This document shows, piece after piece, positions 10,574 through 11,958 of a DNA stretch of 36,938 nt (positions are counted from its first letter, which is position 1; the number at the start of each line of letters is the position of its first letter). The stretch is taken from positions 1 to 36,938 of the forward strand of contig VBAY01000034.1 of NCBI GenBank assembly GCA_005883085.1, in the 5' to 3' direction. This DNA comes from Candidatus Bathyarchaeota archaeon (lineage in GTDB: Archaea > Thermoproteota > Bathyarchaeia > 40CM-2-53-6). A model generated the notes under the pieces. The model did not search any database, was not told the DNA's origin, and worked only from the letters and a program-made list of their open reading frames with translations. The translations under genes were made by a program, and so were the position numbers.

Positions 10574-11359
10574 TTGAAGAGAAAACAAGAGAGAATCGAT
10601 ATGCTGCAAATCGTTGATGATCCGAGGAGAGTGGAAGACGCGTACGCTCACCAATACGACAATCTTGCTAGAAAGATAGCGAGGCTCGTCTCTAGTGGGA
10701 GCGGAACTCTCGCAGAGATTGGGTGTGGAAAAGGTCAACTGACCATTCCCTTGGCAAAGCTTCTCCCAGGACACCGATTCAACGTGGTGGACAAGTTCAC
10801 GGGCGCGTACTCAGGGACCCTTGCTCCGTTGAACAAGGCTCTATCTCAAGCGAAGCTGAGGGGCCGGGTCAAGGTGAACAAAGCAGACTATCTAGATTGG
10901 CTGTGGGAAGAATTCTCCGACAAGTACGTGGGAGCAATATCAAGCGAGTTTCTTCCCGAGATCGATTCCTACGAGCTGCGCATGTTCTTGTCGGAATGCT
11001 AGCGGCTTGTGAGACCCGGTTGTCTTACCACCCACTCTTTTCTCTCCCCAATAGCCAGAAACCGTCGACAGAAGCTAGTGATAGACGCGGACAGTAACCC
11101 GAAATGGACGAAGACTCCTCCCAAGGAATGGTTTTCTCCCAAGCCCGCATTCGTAGTGTCAGAGCTGAAACGAGCAGGGTTCCAGAATCTCCATACTCAG
11201 AAGATGGAGAGCAATCTCATCATTAAGGGCGATGCGGTCATGAGCTTTCTGCATAGCTGGGCTGTCAGGAAAGCATTCTGGAGATCATACAGGTCGGAGC
11301 TGGCGAGCGAGGGGTTGGAGGTCCCTGATTGGATCATCGTGTCAGGTCGTAAACCCTAG
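10574..11359 (+). pseudogene. SAM-dependent methyltransferase interrupted by one in-frame TAG
   Basis: ORFs 10574-11002 and 11009-11359 are in the same frame. Joined: …LAEIGCGKGQLTIPLA…ELRMFLSEC-[TAG 11000-11002]-RLVRPGCLTTHSF…, continuous with a normal methyltransferase fold. Confidence 0.75.
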
Positions 11360-11436
11360 AGAAACTAGTCCGCATTCTGAGTCAAGCTAACGGAAAGAAA
11401 GGTGGGATGTCAATGACGACCGCGATATCCTGTAGT

Positions 11437-11523
11437 TTAAGCGGTCTCTTTTGTCTGGGGTTCTTTTGTTTGGTCCATGGATCCGCCGCATCCGCAGCCG
11501 GGTCCGCAGCAGCAACAACTCAA
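11437..11523 (-). CDS. 28-aa Cys-rich miniprotein MSCCCCGPGCGCGGSMDQTKEPQTKETA
   Basis: TTG start at 11523-11521; Shine-Dalgarno GAGGTGA (11538-11532) with an 8-nt spacer; TAA at 11439-11437; promoter element TTTAAATA (11570-11563) placed for a start near 11540. Too short for the supplied ORF track. Confidence 0.6.
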   Translation of the reverse strand: MSCCCCGPGCGCGGSMDQTKEPQTKETA

Positions 11524-11549
11524 GTCACACTTCACCTCGGTTAGTCAGT

Positions 11550-11564
11550 TACTTTTCTAAAGTA
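11550..11564. promoter_or_regulatory. Perfect inverted repeat TACTTT-TCT-AAAGTA overlapping the TATA element
   Basis: 6-bp arms with a 3-nt spacer, read directly in the hxlR/miniprotein divergent promoter. Confidence 0.6.
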
Positions 11565-11570
11565 TTTAAA
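11563..11570. promoter_or_regulatory. Bidirectional TATA box (TATTTAAA on +, TTTAAATA on -)
   Basis: Spacing to the hxlR ATG (11605) and to the miniprotein SD/TTG (11538/11523) fits archaeal promoters on both strands. Confidence 0.55.
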
Positions 11571-11588
11571 CCGGCAAGTACCCAAACA

Positions 11589-11601
11589 GTAACGGAGTTA
11601 C
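11589..11601. promoter_or_regulatory. Perfect inverted repeat GTAAC-GGA-GTTAC just upstream of the HxlR start
   Basis: 5-bp arms with a 3-nt spacer, ending 3 nt before the ATG at 11605. Confidence 0.55.
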
Positions 11602-11604
11602 ACG

Positions 11605-11958
11605 ATGGTAAGGACGAAAGAAGGAGAACCATGCTGCACCTGCCCCTGCCCCTGCGAAGGAATAATCGAGATCATCGGGAAAAAATGGGCACTCTGCGTA
11701 CTCGCACTCCTAGGAAACGATGGAACCCTACGATTCAACAAACTTGCCGAGAAACTTCCGGGAATAAGCGCGAAGACACTGACGGAAGTTCTGAAGGATC
11801 TTCAGCGAACCGGGCTAGTAAAGCGTCAAGCCTTCGCCGAAATTCCACCACGAGTAGAATACCATCTAACGAAGGAGGGAAATGAGTTGACTATGCTGGT
11901 GGCGCCGTTGATGGTTTGGGCTGATAACAGGACTGGGCTTGTCAGGCTGGAATCTTAG
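11605..11958 (+). CDS. HxlR-family winged-helix regulator with N-terminal Cys cluster
   Basis: MVRTKEGEPCCTCPCPCEGIIEIIGKKWALCVLALLGNDGTLRFNKLAEKLPGISAKTLTEVLKDLQRTGLVKRQ… is a classic HxlR layout. Confidence 0.9.
   Translation: MVRTKEGEPCCTCPCPCEGIIEIIGKKWALCVLALLGNDGTLRFNKLAEKLPGISAKTLTEVLKDLQRTGLVKRQAFAEIPPRVEYHLTKEGNELTMLVAPLMVWADNRTGLVRLES

Follow-up and report, generated by a model that had tools for sequence, protein, structure and literature searches.

On the evidence of sequence comparison, soil archaea carry an overlooked peptide gene, divergent from the gene for a Cys-rich DNA-binding regulator. The two very probably form a module in which a regulator of the HxlR family controls a thiol miniprotein, and the best reading of it is that a local HxlR regulator with a Cys cluster governs a thiol peptide resembling metallothioneins. 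That the function of this module is metal sequestration is evenly balanced with its not being so. Together, the peptide and regulator look like a miniature switch against toxic metals or other thiol-reactive stress.

The window, meaning the whole stretch of 36,938 nucleotides that was analysed, lies on contig C266 of an archaeal draft genome of 1.7 Mb (assembly 78% complete), the closest named relatives of which are soil Bathyarchaeota genomes. Orthologous hxlR loci were taken from the same genus and family; 16 of these, with the window counted in, have an intact 5' flank. The features of the locus in the window are:

11392-11400, minus strand: T-rich stretch, a candidate archaeal terminator about 36-45 nt past the miniprotein stop codon, interrupted in the window copy (TTTCTTT)
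11437-11523, minus strand: Cys-rich miniprotein gene, 28 aa, with a TTG start, found in the ORF lists
11532-11538, minus strand: Shine-Dalgarno (SD) sequence GAGGTGA of the miniprotein gene
11540-11552, no strand: candidate operator B, a degenerate GTAAC-N3-CTAAC overlapping the predicted minus-strand transcription start
11560-11570, no strand: shared TATA-box region (AAGTATTTAAA / TTTAAATACTT) between the divergent genes
11589-11601, no strand: candidate operator A, GTAACGGAGTTAC, a perfect GTAAC-N3-GTTAC overlapping the predicted plus-strand transcription start
11605-11958, plus strand: gene for an HxlR/DUF24-family regulator, 117 aa
11632-11655, plus strand: Cys cluster of the regulator, codons 10-17, CCTCPCPC

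No transporter adjoins this gene pair in the window. A methyltransferase-like gene upstream of the mini-gene, at 10574-11359, is divided into two frames (10574-11002 and 11009-11359), and in relatives such as L050, L051 and L052 is a single intact 261-aa ORF; the split copy is either a pseudogene or an assembly error.

The miniprotein, MSCCCCGPGCGCGGSMDQTKEPQTKETA, had been proposed as a coding ORF with an SD and TTG start by a sequence-only reading of the window, and comparison with relatives confirms the ORF from 11523 to 11437 as a real gene. A divergent Cys-rich mini-ORF lies at the same position in 16/16 hxlR loci with an intact 5' flank, encoding peptides of between approximately 17 and 35 aa, for example MSCCCCGPGCGCGGTMERTEDRKTNETA, MGCCCCGCCGPGCCTSEQPTGKPEKD, MDDCCPCCCGCCGPHAKGTP and MENCCCSGCGCSCGCSGGPGIDNTP. 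The SD, separated from the TTG by 8 nt in the window, is kept at every one of these loci, with one G variant in L013, and 15 of the mini-ORFs have ATG, GTG or TTG 5-9 nt past it; in L014, translation would have to begin at CTG or at a GTG that shares bases with the SD. The window likewise has an in-frame GTG overlapping its SD, at 11535, and this is a less likely start than the TTG. Among the six closest sequences, the 13-codon Cys head contains six variable sites, all of which are synonymous third positions (P = 5e-4, random placement), and 11 of the 12 variable codons in the tail are non-synonymous. In combination with the conservation, this pattern indicates that the Cys head is translated and selected, with the tail nearly free. 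The earlier reading had staked its claim on conservation beside HxlR genes and on selection, and both were found, the latter in the form of purifying selection acting on the Cys motif.

No part of the peptide other than the Cys head is conserved, with variants running from MDGCECPCGCGCCGPGF to MSCCGCGCGGGCCGPGCGCGG. None of these has an aromatic residue in the head, the L013 orthologue ending in a Phe outside the Cys cluster, and a 21-nt in-frame insertion in L010 adds Cys. Divergent ORFs with at least five Cys in 15 aa are found at only 3 of 259 ORF starts in the same genomes, two of the three being hxlR loci, and the mini-ORF is present at none of 16 loci of HxlR paralogues without the CxC motif. 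Searches of the peptide and its relatives against Pfam and NCBIfam models matched no family, including no metallothionein family.

The start codons of the two genes are separated by 81 bp, within which every one of the 16 loci has TAAATACTT in the same position. This common TATA box, with a candidate operator to either side, upholds the single shared promoter region that had been claimed. Site B is a perfect GTAAC-N3/4-GTTAC in several relatives, and the two sites are 49 bp apart where both are perfect. As the spacing between TATA box and start is usually around 25 bp in archaea, site A would lie over the plus-strand transcription start and site B over that of the minus strand. No exact GTAACNNNGTTAC other than operator A occurs in the window's genome assembly, itself 78% complete, and the exact palindrome search therefore identified no wider regulon in this genome; this suggests a local repressor, with the HxlR protein probably regulating its own gene. 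An exact GTAAC-N3-GTTAC also stands at G014:C17:48307-48319, some 70 bp ahead of the gene for an HxlR paralogue (31% identity), hence this type of operator may be common to several HxlR proteins. An Rfam search of the intergenic region found no riboswitch or known RNA, and a scan for sigma-70 promoters found nothing, as expected for an archaeon. Beyond the mini-ORF, runs of T5 or longer occur 15-44 nt past the stop codon in 13/16 loci, compared to 5.8% of background windows. Although the run in the window is weaker than those in relatives, such runs suggest that the mini-gene is transcribed as a short monocistronic RNA.

The regulator, which begins MVRTKEGEPCCTCPCPC..., matches PF01638 with an E value of 8e-25 (86.9 bits, against a cut-off of 20.8). 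Its predicted structure (pLDDT 84.6) contains an HxlR-like winged-helix domain and matches the structures of HxlR, YodB, QsrR and HypR, with a Foldseek E value of 9e-8 to 7bzd and 5hs7. Cys residues are found at C10, C11, C13, C15, C17 and C31, the first five of these falling within eight residues, as the claim of a Cys-cluster HxlR regulator had it; this five-Cys cluster is invariant within the window's family. It precedes helix 1 (residues 20-24 of the model), in an N-terminal extension that is less certain. The N-terminal Cys that the family conserves within helix alpha-1 or immediately ahead of it is C15, which aligns with the sensor residues HypR C14 and HxlR C11. As HypR, YodB and CatR sense oxidants by an N-terminal Cys (PMC6943732), thiol sensing by the window's HxlR protein is well founded; metal as the signal would be a further step. 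The formaldehyde-sensing HxlR protein depends on a C11-K13 pair, in which Lys13 is needed for the cross-link, a feature marking a subtype and not the family (PMC7835342). The Cys-x-Lys pair is absent from the window's regulator, which has C15-P16-C17, with Cys17 at the position of Lys13; formaldehyde sensing in the style of Bacillus subtilis HxlR was consequently rejected, and an aldehyde role of that kind is unlikely. The closest named relatives in NCBIfam are the redox regulators RrpA and RrpB, at scores well below cut-off.

Under the preferred reading, a dimer of the HxlR-family protein would bind the GTAAC-N3-GTTAC sites on either side of the shared TATA box, repressing the divergent miniprotein gene as well as its own. 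Repression would be lifted once the N-terminal Cys cluster beside helix alpha-1 is modified, whether by a soft metal ion (Cu(I), Zn/Cd or As(III)) or by some other signal that reacts with thiols. The short monocistronic mRNA then produced would be translated into the 28-aa peptide, which may capture the metal in a thiolate cluster of the metallothionein kind. P1B ATPases are encoded elsewhere in the genomes, at loci of their own, and the window's assembly has no further exact palindrome, so the module is not obviously in command of metal export genes.

A wider survey found a profile match at E 1e-25 or better in 61 of 260 Bathyarchaeia genomes. Regulators of other families carry a shorter motif, CxCP, and the slot facing a CxC-type HxlR gene outside the window's family is usually filled by a different small protein. 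Under a strict SD-based rule, a small Cys/His-rich or thioredoxin-like gene occupies the slot at 19 of 31 CxC loci outside this family, as compared to 7/196 background starts and 0/16 paralogues without CxC, although most of these paralogues belong to a single orthologous group and the CxC loci are themselves interrelated, such that P values overstate independence. The slot proteins include those with a Cys/His-rich head and coiled coil (MCCDCGCGSGHHGEGHHHEEGHERGHGRRFLT...), ECHPNMKEHPC-type and MCIEC-type peptides, and thioredoxin-like proteins. The first of these types, approximately 50-75 aa with a coiled-coil tail (RRFLTKEEKIEKLKSYAEELKKEL...), is divergent from CxC-type HxlR genes at L117, L118, L137-L142, L145 and others, and has a weak similarity to DUF5320 that is below cut-off. 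Thioredoxin-like proteins are found in the slot at L124, L126, L127, L128, L132, L184 and L192, the one tested being Thioredoxin_3. Cys-only peptides are paired with five-Cys HxlR proteins, and the Cys/His coiled-coil proteins with two-Cys HxlR proteins. Outside the Bathyarchaeia, the arrangement was observed in four of 14 loci inspected (L172, L184, L191 and L192). Searching a whole genome with one of the divergent small proteins gave no useful information, short queries being weak.

Genes that neighbour these loci bear indirectly on what the module might do. ABC-2 transporters follow the small protein or are nearby at around 10 loci, Cu-type P1B ATPases are near L119 (on the other strand) and L123, and a Zn/Cd-type ATPase is near L132, again on the other strand. 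CopD-type proteins are also found, that at L067 confirmed by Pfam and those at L133 and L135 assigned only because their sequences cluster with L067. In sister lineages the slot is often taken by proteins with abundant Cys and His alike, such as CCDCGCGSGHHGEGHHHEEGHERGHG, which favours metal over redox: the His-rich proteins fit metal binding and the thioredoxin-like ones fit redox, and slots with thioredoxin-like proteins or ABC-2 exporters are also compatible with redox or xenobiotic stress. The notion of a metal- or thiol-responsive module thus gains indirect support from the Cys/His-rich, thioredoxin-like and CopD proteins in the slot and the Cu/Zn P-type ATPases nearby; metal buffer, chaperone and redox relay are candidate roles for the miniprotein. 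It is conceivable, if somewhat less than evenly so, that a widespread archaeal architecture exists in which a CxC-type HxlR protein controls a divergent small soft-metal-binding protein, with this partner pared down in the soil Bathyarchaeia branch to nothing more than a poly-Cys peptide, an archaeal metallothionein class under an HxlR metal sensor.

In L050 and L059, a cassette comprising a second type of mini-gene and an unknown gene of 154-181 aa is positioned between the promoter and the original mini-gene. Loci L006 and L017 have the promoter, mini-gene and HxlR N-terminus in common with one another, with HxlR proteins 97% and 76% identical to that of the window. Based on this sharing and the second copies, the promoter-peptide segment appears to have been exchanged and the peptide gene multiplied; multiplied genes are common among metallothioneins. 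The conserved protein encoded alongside the second mini-gene type, A3, is found between hxlR and the old mini-gene at L050:5489-6034 and L051:5616-6080, with matching genes in L059 and L062. The one member tested had no Pfam match, A3 had no PADLOC match, and its predicted structure (pLDDT 53.8) was too poor for use. At L152, in genome G017, an hxlR remnant with a stop codon is flanked by neither an SD nor a TATA box nor a Cys ORF, suggesting that hxlR and the mini-gene were lost together; the neighbouring A3-type gene is broken too.

Alternative explanations differ in whether the peptide is made at all and in what it would do. That the mini-ORF is a chance frame within a conserved promoter region is scarcely credible: its TTG start and the one relative without a standard start at the right spacing are what might be expected of such a frame, but it was rejected on the synonymous nature of every variable site in the Cys head and on the presence of the ORF at 16/16 loci and its absence from the 16 paralogue loci. 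Mycobacterial polycysteine sORFs are described as translation-sensing attenuators (Canestrari et al. 2020, as cited in PMC9094748), and the density of Cys codons in so short an ORF, close to the 5' end of its transcript, with a same-strand gene next in some relatives, could be taken as a leader peptide of this type. This is very improbable, however, as the next gene downstream in the window is on the opposite strand, that in relatives is inconstant (aldo/keto reductase, glycosylase, unknown or none), T-rich runs follow 13/16 mini-ORFs and two genomes have a second mini-gene copy further downstream; the attenuator was rejected for want of a constant downstream gene and for the T-rich run past the ORF. 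The likeness to the mycobacterial leaders consists of a short ORF with a Cys-codon run near the promoter, and the difference of the likely terminator and lack of a constant co-transcribed gene in the window.

A more serious competitor, albeit rather unlikely, is a thiol-redox or electrophile module, in which C15 and its neighbours would make the HxlR protein a sensor of disulfide stress or electrophiles, in the manner of HypR, YodB and QsrR, with the peptide serving as a sacrificial thiol sink or a thiol-disulfide relay. Oxidant sensing by the N-terminal Cys of HypR, YodB and CatR (PMC6943732) favours this, as does the alignment of C15 with HypR C14. It is likewise consistent with the thioredoxin-like divergent gene in five Bathyarchaeia loci, one of them Thioredoxin_3, and with the aldo/keto reductase gene that lies downstream, on the strand of the miniprotein, in several relatives from the window's clade. 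Against it, metal is a better fit than redox for the His-rich versions of sister lineages, and the slot or its surroundings also hold metal exporters. Nor does the uninterrupted CCCC run with Gly/Pro correspond to any known relay motif. Improbable, too, is that the peptide serves as a co-effector, binding the Cys cluster of HxlR through a bridging metal or mixed disulfide so as to tune DNA binding, in a feedback loop without bulk buffering. The matched pairing of Cys-only and Cys/His partners with five-Cys and two-Cys regulators would suit this, as would the promoter, peptide and HxlR N-terminus that L006 and L017 have in common despite differing HxlR bodies; yet the peptide varies greatly in length and sequence opposite an invariant HxlR Cys cluster, and common ancestry of one DNA segment explains the linkage equally well.

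The metallothionein-like reading can be set beside several known systems. The HxlR/DUF24 thiol regulators, including B. subtilis HypR, YodB and HxlR, Staphylococcus aureus QsrR and Campylobacter jejuni RrpA/RrpB, share PF01638, the winged-helix fold, the N-terminal sensor Cys and a position adjoining a probable target. They have a single Cys where the window's protein has five in eight residues, Lys13 of the formaldehyde sensor is replaced by Cys17, and their targets are a reductase or dehydrogenase, whereas the probable target in the window is a peptide. Regulators of this family bind an inverted repeat in their own promoter or a neighbouring one, and the conserved palindromes in the window are candidates for such sites. 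The cop module of Sulfolobales (CopT/CopR, CopM and the CopA ATPase) is similarly a compact archaeal combination of regulator and small protein, with a metal-binding role in the case of CopM, a metallochaperone of 56-71 aa (PMC3595675). By contrast with its TRASH domains, Lrp-like regulator and genes in tandem with an ATPase, the window has an HxlR protein and a divergent 28-aa poly-Cys peptide with no ATPase alongside.

Metallothioneins resemble the peptide in being very short, with around 20-35% Cys in CC and CxC clusters, a Cys-rich head without aromatics, and a tolerance of sequence drift outside the Cys residues, which are conserved above all else. Metallothioneins also bind d10 metals in thiolate clusters, as the peptide would under this reading. 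The window's peptide is shorter than most and matches no Pfam or NCBIfam model, and a literature search found no paper joining Bathyarchaeota and metallothionein.

If this reading is true, archaea would gain a metallothionein-class peptide gene, and metals would join the signals sensed by the HxlR/DUF24 family. It would also mean that a conserved peptide family of under 40 aa can escape gene callers. The compact design, two genes with around 80 bp between them, makes this a directly testable module.
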